Below, piece after piece: positions 56,966 through 64,000 of a stretch of 64,000 nucleotides of DNA. The translations under genes were made by a program, and so were the position numbers. Every line of letters begins with the position of its first letter. The stretch's first letter is position 1. The stretch covers positions 62,001-126,000 of the forward strand of contig JAJPHG010000041.1 of assembly GCA_021325375.1 (NCBI GenBank), read 5' to 3'. The notes under the pieces were generated by a model. The model searched no databases and had not been told where the DNA came from. It was given only the letters and a program-made list of their open reading frames with translations. Source of the DNA: Alphaproteobacteria bacterium. GTDB lineage: Bacteria; Pseudomonadota; Alphaproteobacteria; Micropepsales; Micropepsaceae.

Positions 56966-57223
56966 CCGAAGCTCCGGCGAACAGCCGCGAGCCCAATCAA
57001 GAAGCAGCGGACAGACATCTTCGCATTCGTCCGCGGGATTACGGGAACTTGCGTTCCACGCGGGCGCGCCTGGACTTGCGCCCTTCCCTGTCTGACCCGC
57101 CCAAGCGACGCCTAGTTCAACGGCAAACATGCCTCTTGCAACTTCCGCATCTGAAAATGGCGATTGCAACCGGGAGTTCAAGGGGTCGAGGTAAAATATT
57201 TTCCGTGTACGGAACATATGTTC
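56966..57223 (-). ncRNA. Candidate structured RNA or long 3' leader between YcaO gene and terminator
   Basis: There is no convincing reading frame between the YcaO stop and the terminator. The minus strand begins with stacked palindromes GAACATATGTTC (57212-57223) and TTCCGTGTACGGAA (57201-57214), which look like operator or promoter elements. They are followed by a region able to fold (GTTGCAATCGCC...GTTGCAA at 57127-57173 and GCTCGCGGCTGTTCGCCGGAGC near 56990) and end at the strong terminator. I do not match it to a known RNA family. Confidence 0.3.
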
Positions 57224-57272
57224 AGAACTTTCCTCCCTTCGCGGGACGGGAAGATCGGCTTCGCGTATCGTG

Positions 57273-58472
57273 TCAGGCCGCGGCTTCGGCGTCGGCTTCG
57301 AGGGCGGCCTGCAGCCTTGGGCCCACGCGCATCGTCTCTTTCGAGAAATGCTCCAGCAGCGGCACGATCAGTCGCACGACGTGGAGCGGGCCTTCCTCCG
57401 GCGTGTAGACGACGCGCCAGATCGCAGTGTCGACGACGCGCCGCAGGCAGGCAGCCGCGAGCGCCCACTGCCCTTCGAGCGACGATGCCCTGCCCGGCTC
57501 CTCGATGTCGGCGAAGGCAACCGGCGCGGAGGCGTTCGACACCCGTTCGATCTGGGCGCGCACGCCGTCGGCCTCGGGACCGCTTCCGTCCCATTGCGGG
57601 GCGGCGCGCCCGCCATGAAGGAAAGCCGCCCTGCTCTGCGCCACCTCGGTGACCGCGCGCGTCAGCGCGATGGAAGGATCGAGATGACAGCCCCAGCCGC
57701 CGTTGAAGAAGCGCTGCTGCGGAAGCTCCGGATCGAACAGGAACGCCGCGAAGAACGGCATCCCGAAATCGTTGGGAACCGAACGGACGACGAGATCGAG
57801 GCCGTGGCGCTGCGCTTTCTCCACGATCCGGCGGATCTCGTCCGGCAGGCTCGAAGCCGCGACCAGGCGCGAGGCGTCGCGCACGAACTCGATAGACCAG
57901 ATGTCGCGCTCGATGAGCTCGAAAAGCGCATGCAGGCTCGCCTCCGCGACCGTGTTGCCGGAAGCAAGACCGTTGGTCGACGCGCCGTACAATTCGGTTC
58001 CGACATCGGGGGCAGGATAGAAGACCAGCTCGGCGGGAACCCAGGCGGCTGCGCCCGTCTCGACGTCGCGCGCGCGCGCCAGCAGAAGGCGCTGGTCGGG
58101 CCCAGCGCGGCGGTTCAGCAGAGGCGCGAACGCCAACACCGGGTCGGCGCATGCGCCGCGCACAGCCGGGGCCAGATCGCGCGGCGTTCCCCAGCACGTC
58201 TCGATCACGGCCGCGCCGGGCTCGGCGAAATGGCTTTCGATCGCCTCCATATGGGCGCCGATCTCGGACTCGATCGCGGCCAACCCCTTGCCGAAGGTGA
58301 AGCCGTCCGACAGCGCCGCTTCGCGCTCGCTGACGAAGATCGGAACGTCCAGGCAATCCAGATGGGTGATTTCTTCGACCGCGCGGATGCGCGCGCTTTT
58401 CGCCCAGGCTTTGGCAAGCCTGAGCGTGTCCTCCGGGGCCGCTGCGCGCATGCTGGTGTGCAACCTGTTCAC
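57273..58472 (-). CDS. YcaO-domain protein, putative ATP-dependent peptide cyclodehydratase/thioamidase
   Basis: About 399 residues from a GTG whose site TTTGGAGCGGGC is well placed; an ATG seven codons later is the alternative, and the first 36 codons of the open frame upstream overlap the small peptide gene. YcaO landmarks: FTFGKGLAAIESEIGAHMEA (residues 58-77, with E76 and E79 in MEAIE), STNGLASGNTVAEASLHALF (165-184) and the ATP-site helix FELIERD (184-190). YcaO enzymes phosphorylate the peptide backbone to make azolines, thioamides or macroamidines. No PxPxP C-terminus, ThiF-like partner or TfuA is seen nearby. Last gene of the operon with two mini-proteins and a hydrogenase-like subunit. 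Confidence 0.85.
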   Translation of the reverse strand: MNRLHTSMRAAAPEDTLRLAKAWAKSARIRAVEEITHLDCLDVPIFVSEREAALSDGFTFGKGLAAIESEIGAHMEAIESHFAEPGAAVIETCWGTPRDLAPAVRGACADPVLAFAPLLNRRAGPDQRLLLARARDVETGAAAWVPAELVFYPAPDVGTELYGASTNGLASGNTVAEASLHALFELIERDIWSIEFVRDASRLVAASSLPDEIRRIVEKAQRHGLDLVVRSVPNDFGMPFFAAFLFDPELPQQRFFNGGWGCHLDPSIALTRAVTEVAQSRAAFLHGGRAAPQWDGSGPEADGVRAQIERVSNASAPVAFADIEEPGRASSLEGQWALAAACLRRVVDTAIWRVVYTPEEGPLHVVRLIVPLLEHFSKETMRVGPRLQAALEADAEAAA

Positions 58473-58546
58473 GCCCGCCCGCTCCAAACGGCCGCCGGAT
58501 CTCGACAAGAAGGAGAGGCGAAAGGCGCCTCTCCCGGAAACGAACC

Positions 58547-58648
58547 CTACTTCGGCTTCGGCTTCTTGGTGCCGTGGCAATGCGCGCCCGCGGCGGCGAC
58601 ATGCGAAGCGAGAAGCTCTTCGAGACGCTTCGTGGCCATTTTCGACAT
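58547..58648 (-). CDS. Mini-protein 1, candidate RiPP precursor
   Basis: 33 residues: MSKMATKRLEELLASHVAAA, then GAHCHGTKKPKPK. AAGGAGATCACG precedes the ATG. It shares KRLEELLAS and AAGAHC with the neighbour at 58731-58847, but uses different synonymous codons for 4 of 7 positions of LEELLAS and 3 of 6 of AAGAHC, so the protein, not the DNA, is conserved. The amphipathic front half plus a C-terminal part holding a single Cys between His residues resembles leader and core of modified peptides. YcaO starts 74 bp downstream. Confidence 0.8.
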   Translation of the reverse strand: MSKMATKRLEELLASHVAAAGAHCHGTKKPKPK

Positions 58649-58730
58649 CGTGATCTCCTTGGTGATGTGACCGCTTCCCTGGCGGCCGGGTTGGAATGCC
58701 CCGGAAGCACGGCTTCCGGCACTATCCCCC

Positions 58731-58847
58731 TCAGACGCCCGGGGGCTTAGGCTGGGGCTTCGGGCGGTCGCCGCCGCAATGGGCGCCGGCCGCGTTGATG
58801 CGTGAAGCAAGCAATTCTTCGAGATGTTTCCTGGCTTGTACCGACAT
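58731..58847 (-). CDS. Mini-protein 2, candidate RiPP precursor
   Basis: 38 residues: MSVQARKHLEELLASRINAA then GAHCGGDRPKPQPKPPGV. AGGAGAGAATGCA precedes the ATG at good spacing. Paralogue of mini-protein 1, with 17-18 conserved positions over the first 25 residues, a Pro/Lys-rich tail of different length and exactly one Cys at the same place. It starts 37 bp after the hydrogenase-like gene, in the same operon. No database family recognised. Confidence 0.8.
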   Translation of the reverse strand: MSVQARKHLEELLASRINAAGAHCGGDRPKPQPKPPGV

Positions 58848-58884
58848 TGCATTCTCTCCTTGCGTTGCAGCCTTGCGGCGAGGC

Positions 58885-60726
58885 TCAAATGAGCCCGTCG
58901 CTGGTCACCTCTTTGGCCGCGGTGAAGTTGGTGCCCAAAAAGCTCAGCTCCGCCTTGCAAGGCATGCAGGGATCGAAGCTCTGGATGGCGCGGACGATAT
59001 CGATGCCGGCGAAATCCTCCGCAGCCGTCCAGTTCGACTCGACGATCGTGGTGTTGAGCACCGCCTGCTCCACGGCGCCCGGCTGGCCGCCGGGCGTGCG
59101 CGGCCCCGCATTGATGCGCGACGGGATCGAGACCTGATAGTTGGCGAGCTCGGCGCCTTCGAGCACCGCCCAATGCGCCAGCATCCCGCGCCCCGCGCCG
59201 CCGAAGCCGACGCCGAAACGCCGCCCCGGCCCGGGCAGGTCGAAGGCACTGCGCATGCGCGTCTCGCCCTGCGCGATCAGCGCCTTGGCGCGCGCCTGGC
59301 ATTCCAGGACCGCCGCGAGATTGAAGGCTATGGCATAGGCGCGCGCGCGGTTGCGCTCGAAGGCGTTCCAGATCTCGGGAACGCGCCATTCCAGCCCATC
59401 GAAGACGAGGCTCGTACCCGTGGAATGCATGAAGCGGCTCTCGGGCATCTTCGCCGCGAGCGCCGATATATAGAGACGCGCATAGGCGCCGACCTCGAAC
59501 GCGCTTCCGTCCCAGGCGAGCGACGGCGCCCAGCTATAGGCGCCCGGCTTGGCGGGGTTGCGGCGGATCGTCTTGTTCCAGGGATGGTTGGGACTGAGCG
59601 CGTTGCCCAGCGGATCGGCGGCGTGATCGGCGCGCTCCCACGAATCGTAGAAGGCACGGTCTACGAACTCCTCCATCCCGGCATTGAGGGCGCTGAGCTT
59701 GGTCGTGACCAGCGCGCCGTCGACGACCGCGCCCGGCGTCGACCAGCGCTTCTCGCCCCAGACGTCGCAGTTCTCGTAAGTGCCGTCGTAGAACGCTTCG
59801 TGGTCCCACTGGCCGAAATCGACGAGATTGGCGGGGCCGCGCCCGAGATCGCGGTAGCGCGGCTCGCACGCATAGAGGAAATCGAATACGTCGTCCCAGA
59901 TCCGCGCGCAACGCAGCGCATAGTCGCGGAAGGGGCTGAGCTTCGCCGCGAACGCATCGAGCTGCTCCACGCTGAAGGAGAGCGTGACGCCGCCGGGCAC
60001 GATCGATTCGGAATGCGGATACTTCCCGCCGAGCAGCGCGTAAGCCGCGCGCGCCAGCCGCATCATGTCGAGCGCTTCCGCGAACAGCCGGCCGCCCGGA
60101 CGGTTCAGCTCCGTCATGATCGCGCCGATCGTGGCAAAGCCATGCGTGGCGGCATGCGCCGCGGGCGCGTGCTCGGCCTTCGCCCAGATCTCGGGATTGG
60201 TCGCGCGGATCGCGCTTTCCGAATAATCGGGGCCCGACAGGATGAAGAGATGCATCGGGTTGTCGTTCAGATACTGGCACCCGAGCAGCAGGTTGCGCGC
60301 CAGGATGCCGAGCGGCGGCGGCTTGATGCCGAGCGCCATCTCCAGGCACTGCGCGGAAGTCGCGGCATGCACGCCGCCGCAGATGCCCGACGCTGTCGCG
60401 CTGATCAGCCCCGCATCGCGCAGGTCGCGCTTCATCAGCAGCGTCTCGTAGCCGCGGAACAGCGTCGCGAAAGATGCCGCGTCCGCCACGCGGCGGCGTT
60501 CGAGGTCCACGCGGCAATGCAGCGCGATGCCGCCGCCGATCTTGCGGAACTTGTCGGTGTCGTCGGCGAGCGACGCCTTGTTCTGGCGCGCGATGGCGTC
60601 GAGGAGCTCGCGCCCTGGACCATTGGCGGGGCCCCGCGCGGGCATCGCGGCACGGCTCGCCACGACGTCCGGTTCGCCCAGGACGTTGTGCGCATACGCG
60701 CTCGACAATCTCGCAGTGCCCCTCAT
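58885..60726 (-). CDS. [NiFe]-hydrogenase large-subunit homologue with altered L1 site
   Basis: 613 residues. It aligns without gaps around L1 to group 1h/actinobacterial-type hydrogenases (FRGYETLLMKRDLRDAGLIS; YPHSESIVPGGV; HGFATIGAIM). L1 reads TASGICGGVH (residues 111-120): the Arg and first Cys of RxCGxC are Thr111 and Ser113, while the bridging Cys116 and His120 remain. L2 is intact (FDPCMPC, Cys587/590), as is the GRGMLAHW Arg. The position of the processing His after L2 is Glu593 (CKAEL), followed by a 20-residue tail. AAGGGGCGCT precedes the ATG. First gene of the operon with two mini-proteins and YcaO; no small subunit is in the window. Confidence 0.85.
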   Translation of the reverse strand: MRGTARLSSAYAHNVLGEPDVVASRAAMPARGPANGPGRELLDAIARQNKASLADDTDKFRKIGGGIALHCRVDLERRRVADAASFATLFRGYETLLMKRDLRDAGLISATASGICGGVHAATSAQCLEMALGIKPPPLGILARNLLLGCQYLNDNPMHLFILSGPDYSESAIRATNPEIWAKAEHAPAAHAATHGFATIGAIMTELNRPGGRLFAEALDMMRLARAAYALLGGKYPHSESIVPGGVTLSFSVEQLDAFAAKLSPFRDYALRCARIWDDVFDFLYACEPRYRDLGRGPANLVDFGQWDHEAFYDGTYENCDVWGEKRWSTPGAVVDGALVTTKLSALNAGMEEFVDRAFYDSWERADHAADPLGNALSPNHPWNKTIRRNPAKPGAYSWAPSLAWDGSAFEVGAYARLYISALAAKMPESRFMHSTGTSLVFDGLEWRVPEIWNAFERNRARAYAIAFNLAAVLECQARAKALIAQGETRMRSAFDLPGPGRRFGVGFGGAGRGMLAHWAVLEGAELANYQVSIPSRINAGPRTPGGQPGAVEQAVLNTTIVESNWTAAEDFAGIDIVRAIQSFDPCMPCKAELSFLGTNFTAAKEVTSDGLI

Positions 60727-60820
60727 AGCGCCCCTTGAAATCGTCTCGTCCGGAGCCCTTCGCCGGAATCGTTCCGTTGAAAGTAGAATAGGCTTCTCAA
60801 CGCCGTAAGGTTGTGATGTT
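60727..60820. promoter_or_regulatory. Divergent promoter region between hydrogenase-like and hyp operons
   Basis: 94 bp must carry both promoters. An inverted repeat CGTTGA-N16-TCAACG (60775-60802) lies centrally and could be an operator shared by both directions. No standard sigma-70 or sigma-54 element is clear. Confidence 0.4.
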
Positions 60821-63172
60821 ATGAGAGGACTGTTCCGCGTTCAAGGGCCTGCGTGGGCGGAGTGGGGCAATATGTATGCAAACACGGCCGATGTGGTGTC
60901 GGGCGAACCGCACGCCGTCGAGACCGTCGAGATTCGCGTTCGCGGCACCGTCCAGGGTGTCGGCTTCCGCCCGACCGTTTGGCGCCTGGCGCAGGAGAAC
61001 GGCCTTGTCGGCCACGTCCTGAACGACAGCGCCGGCGTGCTCATCCAGGCTACCGGAAGCACGGCGCGCATCGCGCGATTCGTGAAGAGCCTGGAGACCG
61101 AGGCGCCGCCGCTGTCGCGAATCGAGCGGATGGAAGTCCGCCGCTTGCGCGAGGCTGTCGCGTTCGACGGTTTCGTCATCGCGGGCAGCGTCGCGGGCGA
61201 GACGCGCACCAACGTCACGCCGGACGCCGCCACCTGCCCCGCCTGCCGTGCCGAGATCTTCGATCCGGCCGAGCGGCGCTTCGGCTATCCCTTCACCAAC
61301 TGCACCCATTGCGGGCCCAGGCTCTCGATCGTCAAGCGCGTGCCCTATGACCGCGCTAACACCACGATGGCGGCGTTCCCCCTTTGCGAGGATTGCACGC
61401 GCGAATATCGCGATCCGGCCGACCGGCGCTTCCACGCGCAGCCTGTCGCCTGCCCCGTCTGCGGCCCGAAAGTCTGGCTGGATGGCGGCGAGCCCTCGCC
61501 GGGGACGATCGGCGAAGTCGTCCGCGAGCTGCGCGCCGGAAAGATCGTCGCCATCCGCGGCCTCGGCGGCTTCCACCTCGCCTGCGACGCGACGAACGCC
61601 ACGGCCGTGCAAACGCTGCGCAGCCGCAAGAAGCGCTTCGGCAAGCCCTTCGCGCTGATGGCGCGCGACGTGGACGCGATCCGCCGCTACGCGCGCGTGT
61701 CGGAAAGCGAACTTGCGCTTTTGCAGAGCCCGGCCGCGCCGATCGTCCTTTTGAACGCATCGGGCGAGCGCCTGCCCGAGGGCGTGGCGCCGGGGCTGAA
61801 GACGCTGGGCTTCATGCTGCCCTACACGCCGCTGCATCTGCTGATCATGGCGGGGTTCGACACGCCACTGGTGATGACCAGCGGCAACATCGCGCACGAG
61901 CCGCAGGTCACCGGCAACGACGAGGTGAGCGCCAAGCTCGGCCCCATCGCCGACCGCGTCCTGCTGCACGACCGCGACATCGCCAACCGCATCGACGATT
62001 CCGTCGTGCGCGTCATGGCCGGACGCCCGCGCCTCATCCGCCGCGCGCGCGGCTATGCCCCCGCGCCGATGCGGCTTCCCAAGGGGTTCGAGGACGCGCC
62101 CGAGATCCTGGCCTTCGGCGGCGAGCTGAAGTCGACGTTCTGCCTGGTGAAGAACGGCCAGGCGATCCTGTCGCAGCACCAGGGCGATCTCGAGGACGCC
62201 GCGACCTTCGACGACTACCAGAAGAACCTCGCGCTCTATCGCGACCTCTATCATCATCGTCCGCGCGCCATAGCGGCGGACATGCATCCCGAATATCTCT
62301 CGACCAAGCTCGCCAAGGAGCATGCGCGCGGCGTGGCGATGCACGAGGTGCAGCATCACCACGCGCATATCGCCAGCTGCATGGCGGAGAACGGTCTGCC
62401 CATCGACGCGCCGCCCGTGCTCGGCGTGGTGCTCGACGGCCTGGGCTACGGCGCGGACGGAACGATCTGGGGCGGCGAGTTCCTGAGCACAGACTATCTC
62501 GGCTTCGAGCGCCTCGCCTCGCTCAAGCCCGTGGCGATGATCGGCGGCGCCCAGGCGATCCGCGAGCCATGGCGCAACACCTATGCCCATCTCGTCGCCG
62601 CGTTCGGCTGGGATGGATTCGAGGAGCGCTTCGGCGACTTGCCGCTCGTCTCCTATTTGAAGAGCAAGCCGCGCGCCAGCATCGACCGGATGCTGGAAGC
62701 CGGCATCAACGTGCCGCCCGCGAGCTCCTGCGGACGCCTGTTCGATGCCGTCGCGGCCGCGCTCGGCTTGTGCCCCGACCTTGCGCTGTTCGAAGGCCAG
62801 GCCGCCATCGAGCTGGAGGACGCCATAGAGGCGCCGGAGGAAGGCTATGTCTTCGACCTGCGCGAACCCCGCGCGCTGTGGGAAAGCCTGCTCGAAGATA
62901 TCCGCGCCGATGTCGGCGTGCCGAAGATCGCCGCGCGCTTCCACTACGGCTTGGCCGCCGCGGTGACCGATCTCGCGGTCGCGCTCGCGCCGGGCGATAC
63001 GGTGGTGCTCTCCGGCGGCTGCTTCCAGAACAAGACATTGCTGGAAGTCTGCACAAGGATGATCGAGAGCCGCGGACTTCGGGCGCTCTCCCAAGCAGAC
63101 ATCGCAACCAATGACGGCGGGCTGTCGCTCGGCCAAGCGGCAATCGCCGCCGCGCGCGAAATAAGAGGATAG
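60821..63172 (+). CDS. hypF: Hydrogenase maturation carbamoyltransferase HypF
   Basis: 783 residues. Acylphosphatase domain (VRGTVQGVGFRPTVWRLAQE), two zinc-finger pairs (CPACRAEIFDPAERRFGYP..CTHC and CEDCTREY..CPVC), a YrdC-like domain (GKIVAIRGLGGFHLACDATN) and the Kae1-like C-terminal part (HHHAHIASCMAENG, VLSGGCFQNKTLLEVC). It makes thiocarbamate on HypE to produce the CN ligands of the NiFe site. ATG 60821 or ATG 60872 (preceded by GGAG) may be used; the longer form is given. Divergent from the hydrogenase-like gene. Confidence 0.95.
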   Translation: MRGLFRVQGPAWAEWGNMYANTADVVSGEPHAVETVEIRVRGTVQGVGFRPTVWRLAQENGLVGHVLNDSAGVLIQATGSTARIARFVKSLETEAPPLSRIERMEVRRLREAVAFDGFVIAGSVAGETRTNVTPDAATCPACRAEIFDPAERRFGYPFTNCTHCGPRLSIVKRVPYDRANTTMAAFPLCEDCTREYRDPADRRFHAQPVACPVCGPKVWLDGGEPSPGTIGEVVRELRAGKIVAIRGLGGFHLACDATNATAVQTLRSRKKRFGKPFALMARDVDAIRRYARVSESELALLQSPAAPIVLLNASGERLPEGVAPGLKTLGFMLPYTPLHLLIMAGFDTPLVMTSGNIAHEPQVTGNDEVSAKLGPIADRVLLHDRDIANRIDDSVVRVMAGRPRLIRRARGYAPAPMRLPKGFEDAPEILAFGGELKSTFCLVKNGQAILSQHQGDLEDAATFDDYQKNLALYRDLYHHRPRAIAADMHPEYLSTKLAKEHARGVAMHEVQHHHAHIASCMAENGLPIDAPPVLGVVLDGLGYGADGTIWGGEFLSTDYLGFERLASLKPVAMIGGAQAIREPWRNTYAHLVAAFGWDGFEERFGDLPLVSYLKSKPRASIDRMLEAGINVPPASSCGRLFDAVAAALGLCPDLALFEGQAAIELEDAIEAPEEGYVFDLREPRALWESLLEDIRADVGVPKIAARFHYGLAAAVTDLAVALAPGDTVVLSGGCFQNKTLLEVCTRMIESRGLRALSQADIATNDGGLSLGQAAIAAAREIRG

Positions 63173-63176
63173 AACC

Positions 63177-63452
63177 ATGTGCCTTGGAATTCCCGGACGG
63201 ATCGTCGCCATCACGGACCCCGGGCGCAAGCTCGCCCTCGTCGAGGTGAGCGGGGTCAGGCGCGAGATCAACGTCGCCTGCGTCGTCGACGACGGCCAGC
63301 CGATCGAGGATTGCGTGGGCTATTGGGTGCTCGTCCATGTCGGCTTCGCGATGAGCCGCATCGACGAGGCCGAAGCCGCCGCGACATTGCAGGTGCTCAA
63401 CGAGCTCGGCGAGGTGCAGCAGGAGCTCGCCGCCATGGCAGGCTCGGCATGA
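63177..63452 (+). CDS. hypC: Hydrogenase maturation chaperone HypC/HupF family
   Basis: 91 residues, 4 bp after hypF. The N-terminus MCLGIPGRIVAI supplies the essential Cys2 that carries Fe(CN)2CO with HypD; EVSGVRREINVACV and GYWVLVHVGFAMSRIDEAEA complete the fold. The stop overlaps the next ATG (ATGA). Typical length for the family. Confidence 0.95.
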   Translation: MCLGIPGRIVAITDPGRKLALVEVSGVRREINVACVVDDGQPIEDCVGYWVLVHVGFAMSRIDEAEAAATLQVLNELGEVQQELAAMAGSA

Positions 63453-64000
63453 GCGGCAACACCACGCTCAAATCGCTCTATCCCTTCCTGCACGGGCGAA
63501 AGCAGGACCCGGCGCAGATGAACGCGGCGCTGCTCGCGGCGGTCGGCGAGAAGGTCGATCATCATCGCGCCACCATCGACGCGTTCTTCGCCAAGAACGG
63601 TCAGGCGGTGATCGACGCCGCCGGCGCGATCGCCGACACCTATCGCCGCCGCGGGCGGATGTTCACGATGGGCAATGGCGGATCGAGCTGCGACGCGGCC
63701 CACGTCGCCGTCGAGTTCATGCATCCGGTGACGGCGGGACGCCCGGCGCTCACGGCCATCGACCTGACCGCCGACCGCACGATGCTGACCGCGGTCGGAA
63801 ACGACGTCGGCTTCGCGCACATCTATGTCCGCCAGATCATCGCGCAGGGACGCGCCGGCGACGTGCTCATCGGGCTCTCGACCAGCGGCAATTCGCAGAA
63901 CCTGGTGAAGGCGTTCACCAAAGCCAAGGAGATGGGGCTGACCACCATCGGGCTTTCGGGGATGAGCGGCGGCGAGATGGCGAAGATGGGGATCGACCAC
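63449..64000 (+). CDS. SIS-domain (GmhA-like) protein in the hyp operon, cut by window edge
   Basis: 184 residues visible. SIS landmarks: FTMGNGGSSCDAAHVAVEFM (phosphosugar site), LTAVGNDVGFAHIYVRQI and VLIGLSTSGNSQNLVKAFTK, as in sedoheptulose-7-phosphate isomerase GmhA. Genes of this kind occur beside hydrogenase maturation genes in group 1h clusters, as I recall; their role there is not known to me. The overlap with hypC indicates one operon; hypD and hypE probably follow beyond the window. Confidence 0.85.
   Translation, partial: MSGNTTLKSLYPFLHGRKQDPAQMNAALLAAVGEKVDHHRATIDAFFAKNGQAVIDAAGAIADTYRRRGRMFTMGNGGSSCDAAHVAVEFMHPVTAGRPALTAIDLTADRTMLTAVGNDVGFAHIYVRQIIAQGRAGDVLIGLSTSGNSQNLVKAFTKAKEMGLTTIGLSGMSGGEMAKMGIDH

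Follow-up and report, generated by a model that had tools for sequence, protein, structure and literature searches.

A hydrogenase-like protein without the first nickel-site cysteine, encoded beside His-Cys peptides and a YcaO enzyme in Micropepsaceae

The locus

Towards the end of a 64,000 nt stretch (the window) of contig JAJPHG010000041.1, from the Micropepsaceae genome GCA_021325375.1 (the window genome), four minus-strand genes with gaps of 37, 82 and 74 bp encode a hydrogenase-like protein (HYL), two short peptides and a YcaO enzyme (Table 1). A sequence-only reading of this DNA had described the layout, and the coordinates confirm it, as profile matches confirm both protein identities: HYL is a homologue of hydrogenase large subunits (PF00374, NiFeSe_Hases, 4.9e-59) and the last gene encodes a YcaO protein (PF02624, 1.1e-53). 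The ribosome sites assigned to all four genes are clear (aaggag) before both peptides and weaker before HYL and YcaO; no sigma-70-like promoters were found in 57150-61000. That reading did not recognise the combination, and our literature search, judged from titles and abstract starts of the papers listed, returned no description of a YcaO together with a hydrogenase-like protein and a peptide either. Both YcaO and hydrogenase words occur in PMC7058361, PMC7794033, PMC12667266, PMC10322722 and PMC2760140, among others, and no listed title or abstract start describes the combination.

Table 1. Features of the HYL locus and its surroundings; positions refer to the window unless another locus is named.
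Feature	Position	Strand	Remarks
HYL	58885..60726	minus	hydrogenase large-subunit homologue, 613 aa (607 aa if GTG 60708 is the start)
L1 motif SGICGGVH	60367..60390	minus	HYL residues 113-120; Ser at first Cys position, second Cys and His kept
L2 motif DPCMPC	58957..58974	minus	HYL residues 585-590; both Cys kept
Peptide A	58731..58847	minus	38 aa; homologues in five other loci
Peptide B	58547..58648	minus	33 aa; paralogue of A
Peptide-YcaO intergenic stretch	58473..58546	minus	10-bp hairpin
YcaO enzyme	57273..58472	minus	GTG start, 399 aa
hypF	60821..63172	plus	carbamoyltransferase for CN ligands; TIGR00143 773.5 bits (cut-off 466.1); divergent from HYL
hypC	63177..63452	plus	PF01455 2.4e-24; N-terminal Met-Cys kept
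SIS/GmhA-like gene	63449..64000	plus	extends past window end
Hairpins behind last peptide gene	window:58473-58546; L015:9860-9905; L013 behind peptide 2; L011:10283-10410		

Descent of HYL and its ligand sites

Among solved chains the closest to HYL is HofG (5AA5, 1.7e-121), which is also the top Foldseek hit (TM 0.81/0.88) of the HYL AlphaFold model (mean pLDDT 84.7, pTM 0.88). Relatives were taken from a pattern-based scan of the genome_contigs collection using the HYL alignment, which gave 71 HYL loci; the patterns derive from window-type sequences, so that the sample is not random and relatives may be missed. Three of these loci (L040, L043 and L099) belong to the genus genomes G026, G013 and G054, which together with the window genome are referred to below as the four genus genomes.

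Across the 72 sequences of the ligand-site count (71 loci and the window), the first L1 ligand is Ser in all 21 members of one set, hereafter the Ser clade, and Cys in all 51 canonical sequences. Neither set varies at the second L1 Cys, the His or a conserved Arg, and in L2 the Ser clade keeps the first Cys in 21/21 and the second in 20/21. HYL does not have the four-Cys ligand set (CxxC in L1 and in L2) of [NiFe]-hydrogenases. L1 was read at first as a deletion of the second Cys; alignment to the canonical relatives revealed a replacement of the first Cys by Ser. Loss of a Glu that we take to act as proton gate was also considered and dropped, as the canonical sequences here are without that Glu as well. 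The deviating L2 (DPCMKT) is found in L061, a metagenome-assembled genome (MAG) of Methylococcaceae that also has HypA.

In a quick tree the 21 Ser-type sequences form one clade nested among the canonical ones, with a support of 100 in the Shimodaira-Hasegawa-like approximate likelihood ratio test (SH-aLRT), and the YcaO-bearing subclade has a support of 99. The tree holds 49 rows (all 21 Ser-type sequences, every second canonical one, i.e. 26/51, and two outgroup rows out of the four intended). Eight of the rows, among them the window, carry make-up warnings, and the branches of L055 and L061 are long. We assume the label group 1l for the canonical relatives from the presence of Hymenobacter roseosalivarius (L085) among them. 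As far as sequence comparison goes, the descent of HYL from a group-1l-like [NiFe]-hydrogenase large subunit is well supported; with the large subunits of groups 1l/1h, for which HofG is the nearest solved chain, HYL shares fold, length, the second Cys and His of L1 and the CxxC of L2.

Gene content around HYL

Gene content was compared between the 20 Ser-clade loci besides the window (17 longer than 15 kb) and the 51 canonical loci (39 longer than 15 kb), using profiles whose source sequences, from the window clade or from three canonical loci, are themselves among the loci counted; 15 of the 71 loci are at most 15 kb long, and the absence of genes is less sure in those. A small-subunit gene is found in 0/20 Ser-clade loci vs 47/51 canonical ones (39/39 long), a maturation protease gene in 0/20 vs 44/51 (39/39 long) and a MinD/CooC-type P-loop ATPase gene in 0/20 vs 41/51 (36/39 long). 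Four further accessory families are likewise missing from all 20 and present in 36-39 of the 39 long canonical loci. The reference genes have the expected identities: the small subunits of L057 and L085 match PF14720/PF01058, and in L057 the protease matches PF01750/TIGR00072 and the ATPase is of the CbiA/MinD type (the CooC name and a role in nickel handling are our assumption). That the Ser-clade loci have lost the small-subunit, protease and ATPase genes is well supported by these comparisons. The C-terminal tail behind the HYL L2 motif is probably not cleaved, because no protease gene was found.

The genes for the iron group are mostly retained in the Ser clade (HypF 17/20, HypC 16/20, HypD 16/20, HypE 15/20), and the HypC Met-Cys and the HypE PRIC end are intact in 4/4 genus genomes. 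The divergent hyp operon beside HYL, which the sequence-only reading does not mention in its account of the locus, probably belongs to the system; the window covers hypF and hypC in full and the SIS gene in part. Phosphoribosyltransferase (PRTase)-like genes (17/20) and M15-like genes (16/20) are exclusive to the Ser clade, with both in 0 canonical loci, whereas SIS/GmhA-like (16/20 vs 8/51) and FmdE-like genes (16/20 vs 9/51) are enriched in it. HYL and its loci therefore differ from those of groups 1l/1h in the Ser at the first L1 position, in the three missing genes and in their new neighbours; hypCDEF and, sometimes, SIS/GmhA-like neighbours are common to both. The proposal that the hydrogenase-like protein is a partner or a second modifying enzyme was vague: hydrogenase descent stands, for a protein without the first nickel-site Cys, a small subunit or a protease.

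Ser-clade loci without YcaO (e.g. L055, L064, L065, L068-L074, L101, L102, L107 and L108) have PRTase-like, M15-like, SIS and FmdE-like neighbours too. This suggests that HYL has an older function independent of the peptide.

Peptides

Peptide B is 61% identical to peptide A, in which a helix-like start (by eye) is followed by AAGAHC and a Lys/Pro-rich tail. The pattern L..LLA.....A..HC is shared by eight peptides from six loci, including the different-tailed ones of L041 and L042 (both MAGs titled Xanthobacteraceae), and the His-Cys is invariant. Neither A nor B has a Pfam or NCBIfam match at E<=1. Copy number is one or two per locus: the twin peptides of the sequence-only reading recur as a paralogous pair in G054, i.e. 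in two of six loci with the window, and the other four loci have a single peptide.

A profile made with seven of these eight sequences, and hence partly self-matching, has members between HYL and YcaO in 6/6 loci of the window type and none in the other 66 of the 71 HYL loci. Among 388 relatives, its matches below 1e-10 come solely from the four locus-holding genomes, the next best being 0.0024; something at E<=0.1 occurs in 74 of the 388. Bare-motif matches in the YcaO-less clade loci L055, L074 and L108 are unlike the peptide, have no significant profile match and were taken as chance. Over a core of 18 codons in all peptides but peptide B of G054 (seven sequences), nonsynonymous differences (pN) are 0.13-0.34 vs synonymous ones (pS) of 0.46-1.04 in 20/21 pairs; the close pair L041/L042 has a pN of 0.05 vs a pS of 0.13. 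Given this signature of purifying selection and their presence in all six window-type loci, the peptides are, by sequence comparison, real genes.

Hairpins lie 3′ of the last peptide gene in all four genus loci and are weak in L041/L042. They are stronger in G013 and G054, the only two beyond all 20 shuffles, and the energy of the window hairpin is not beyond its shuffles; a role as mRNA stabiliser or attenuator is only suggestive.

The YcaO enzyme and its co-occurrence with the peptide

The YcaO domain (183.2 bits, Pfam cut-off 25.7) is the sole Pfam domain of its protein. The nearest NCBIfam model is TIGR03266 (McrA thioamidation; 175.2 bits, under the cut-off of 365) and the nearest solved YcaO chain is MJ1094 (2.7e-41). 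With the McrA-thioamidating enzymes the window YcaO shares the domain and its overall length as well; it differs from them and from YcaO-TfuA pairs in scoring under the TIGR03266 cut-off, in a genome without TfuA and in its link to HYL and a His-Cys peptide. There is one YcaO per genome in all six HYL+YcaO genomes. TfuA was considered as the missing partner of this YcaO and rejected, none being present in the six genomes. Among 385 genomes of the class, 14 besides the window genome carry YcaO at E<=1e-30 to the profile, in 16 places, and 14 of these alphaproteobacterial places have an adjacent TfuA-like gene by eye (two tested match PF07812). TfuA is also missing from certain methanogens, according to a passage of PMC5589413.

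A YcaO of the window type occurs in 5/71 loci (L040-L043 and L099) plus the window. Close orthologues of YcaO (E <1e-100) are found in 4/100 relatives and those of HYL (E <1e-270) in the same four; counting weaker matches too, the numbers are 7/100 and 11/100. HYL orthologues in the three other genus genomes have 67, 79 and 70% identity. Plasmid records hold 121 matches to HYL, all below 60% identity, the best five at 34-36%.

Whether homologous loci mostly lack the peptide or YcaO depends on how widely relatives are drawn: both are kept at HYL identities of at least 64% (6/6 including the window), and neither is present at 57% or below (0/66, in the stretch examined). Since peptide and YcaO are either present together or both absent, they came as a pair, which fits an enzyme and its substrate. 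The claim that the peptides are YcaO substrates is strengthened, though not proven, by this joint occurrence. An invariant His-Cys peptide occurring with YcaO is the obvious new candidate partner of HYL.

Other hydrogenases in these genomes

No PF00374 protein other than HYL occurs in the window genome. In 17 other genomes (a set without those of L061, L065 and L069) the extra PF00374 matches are weak, with 19-28 bits in frames of 414-541 aa, and were taken as complex-I subunits. The exception is Dyella subtropica (G115, genome of L107), with a partial match of 109 bits at C13:100375-101049 (profile 299-508); this match, the second to PF00374 in that genome, is in a 351-aa frame on a contig other than that of the HYL locus. 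In the four genus genomes the PF01058 matches are confined to open frames of 124-184 aa, which we assign to complex I, and no HycI protease was found. With no other hydrogenase in the window genome, HYL would either use Fe(CN)2CO itself or pass it on.

A proposed nickel-free hydrogenase relative with a peptide partner

To our knowledge, Fe(CN)2CO is known only from [NiFe]-hydrogenases, as part of their cofactor, and from the scaffolds on which that cofactor matures. In passages of PMC12134894 it is made by HypC, D, E and F and enters the large subunit ahead of nickel. HoxV carries it without nickel (PMC12134894) and is a precedent for a nickel-free carrier. The C-terminal extension is usually cut off after cofactor insertion (as stated in part of PMC7294309).

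We tentatively favour, with slightly less than even confidence, the view that HYL is a hydrogenase relative of the Fe(CN)2CO type, free of nickel, and that it acquired as partner a His-Cys peptide modified by the YcaO. HYL would resemble a maturation intermediate kept permanently, receiving Fe(CN)2CO from HypC/D/E/F with no nickel, no C-terminal cut and no small subunit. One HYL subclade has acquired a dedicated peptide, invariant at His-Cys, together with a YcaO. This enzyme would most likely activate an amide in the peptide backbone close to A-x-x-H-C and leave a thioamide, or a thiazoline at the Cys. Together with HYL, the modified peptide would then serve the iron site as ligand or recipient, or form a small partner subunit. 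In a more specific version HYL transfers Fe(CN)2CO to the YcaO-modified peptide, at its Cys (and His), to give a genetically encoded organometallic peptide or a peptide-ligated Fe(CN)2CO catalyst. This would put the hydrogenase iron group to biological use outside hydrogenases, and it strikes us as quite improbable.

The system is real, conserved and, as far as our literature search goes, undescribed. A conserved family that keeps the iron-group genes without the first nickel-site Cys, small subunit and protease, in a genome with no other hydrogenase, would show Fe(CN)2CO doing another job. Its link to a YcaO and a His-Cys peptide would also bring YcaO chemistry into metallocofactor biology.

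In this account the loading with Fe(CN)2CO, the lack of nickel, the modification of the peptide with its chemistry, and the contact between peptide and HYL are inferred. Several observations weigh against it. HypA (PF01155) exceeds its cut-off in 2/17 Ser-clade genomes (L061 and L069), with a fragment under the cut-off in L065, and is missing from 5/6 canonical genomes tested; in L061 the second L2 Cys is lost as well. C241 of Escherichia coli HycE is essential for the contact with HypC (a passage of PMC12134894); by its number this residue is the first L1 Cys, lost in HYL, and loading may fail or differ. On the peptide side, the sequence is not divided by a clear cleavage site into a conserved leader and a variable core, and TfuA is found in 0/6 HYL+YcaO genomes, whereas thioamide-forming YcaOs outside high-sulfide habitats tend to use it (part of PMC13063428). 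No RiPP (ribosomally synthesised and post-translationally modified peptide) recognition element (RRE) turned up in a Pfam scan of YcaO, in which no RRE-specific model was run, and reading through the genes listed for the YcaO-type loci by eye showed no exporter, leader protease or immunity gene, no dedicated search having been made.

The last of these points also tells against a usual RiPP pathway, with the peptide as precursor of a small secreted or metal-binding product and HYL as a tailoring redox enzyme. The short conserved peptide genes, in one or two copies beside YcaO (8 peptides, 6/6 loci), would suit such a pathway, and the hairpins could favour expression of peptide over enzyme; yet other genera carry Ser-type HYL without such a peptide, and we regard this explanation as unlikely.

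YcaO could instead modify HYL itself, as happens to McrA and ribosomal protein uL16, with the peptide as an adaptor joining the two or as a stand-in for TfuA or an RRE. The affinity of the enzyme to MJ1094 and the McrA model points this way, as do the adjacency of HYL, peptide and YcaO on one strand and the modification of folded uL16 by E. coli YcaO without RRE or TfuA, described in part of PMC13063428. The window YcaO resembles the E. coli enzyme in being without TfuA, but has only 28.5 bits to NF040716 (cut-off 700) and different neighbours. YcaO was not found in 15/20 clade HYL loci, the Dyella genome of L072 is without any YcaO, and the invariant His-Cys and varying copy number make the peptide more substrate-like. 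We hold modification of HYL to be rather unlikely.

Against the favoured nickel-free account, HYL might still be a hydrogenase whose NiFe site is altered, by a Ser ligand or in another way, and whose partner has escaped recognition. The modelled fold is intact, the second L1 Cys and the L2 Cys pair are kept in the window, and the HypA pattern makes nickel possible. With small subunit, protease and P-loop ATPase in 0/20 loci, this is very unlikely. Neither the four genus genomes nor L041 and L042 have HypA, and HypB (TIGR00073) gives one match of 20 bits, under the cut-off, in the four genus genomes. Such absence was given up as proof of no nickel: the HypA patterns of the two sets overlap, so that HypA neither separates the groups nor proves nickel loss, and nickel loss is argued solely from the replacement of Cys by Ser and from the genes that the loci do not have. 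The genomes of the canonical group-1l-like loci L085, L097, L047, L054 and L060 have no HypA match, though both subunits, large and small, are encoded at these loci; group-1l-like hydrogenases may obtain nickel by an unusual route.

HYL might also be a scaffold of the HoxV/HupK kind that hands Fe(CN)2CO to another protein, in line with its lack of the first nickel-site Cys and of a small subunit and with HoxV as a nickel-free carrier. The likeness lies in a hydrogenase-like protein with a (for HYL, proposed) cofactor-handling role. HupK serves a hydrogenase of the same cell, whereas the window genome offers no second large subunit as recipient, and another one, possibly the peptide, would be needed. 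HYL is a full-length 1l-type relative of ~600 aa and HupK a protein of ~37 kDa (from part of PMC3534401); unlike HoxV/HupK, HYL is a separate descendant of 1l-type enzymes. This makes a mere scaffold improbable in our view.

Neighbouring genes

Past the SIS gene, the order in L009 is hypD, hypE (ending in PRIC), FmdE-like, M15 (VanX-like), PRTase-like and another M15-like gene; the matches to FmdE and PRTase_3 are weak, under Pfam cut-offs. The M15 proteins of L009 (14005-14805 and 15731-16522), L014 (252-1031) and L016 (1001-1837) keep, by eye, the His...Asp and WH motifs and seem to be without the VanX catalytic Glu, reading VFWH or AVWH where VanX presumably has EWWH.

L055, L064, L068 and L102 have two family-2-like glycosyltransferases each (by eye; one tested matches PF00535), and L068 has Ycf48-like and multicopper-oxidase-like genes too. 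Beside the hyp operon, L011 (1-1638, G026) and L015 (18105-19901, G013) encode a large, probably secreted protein with the motif AWQEFIALNWP. The L015 protein has no Pfam or NCBIfam match, and similar-looking large proteins are encoded in L041 and L055.

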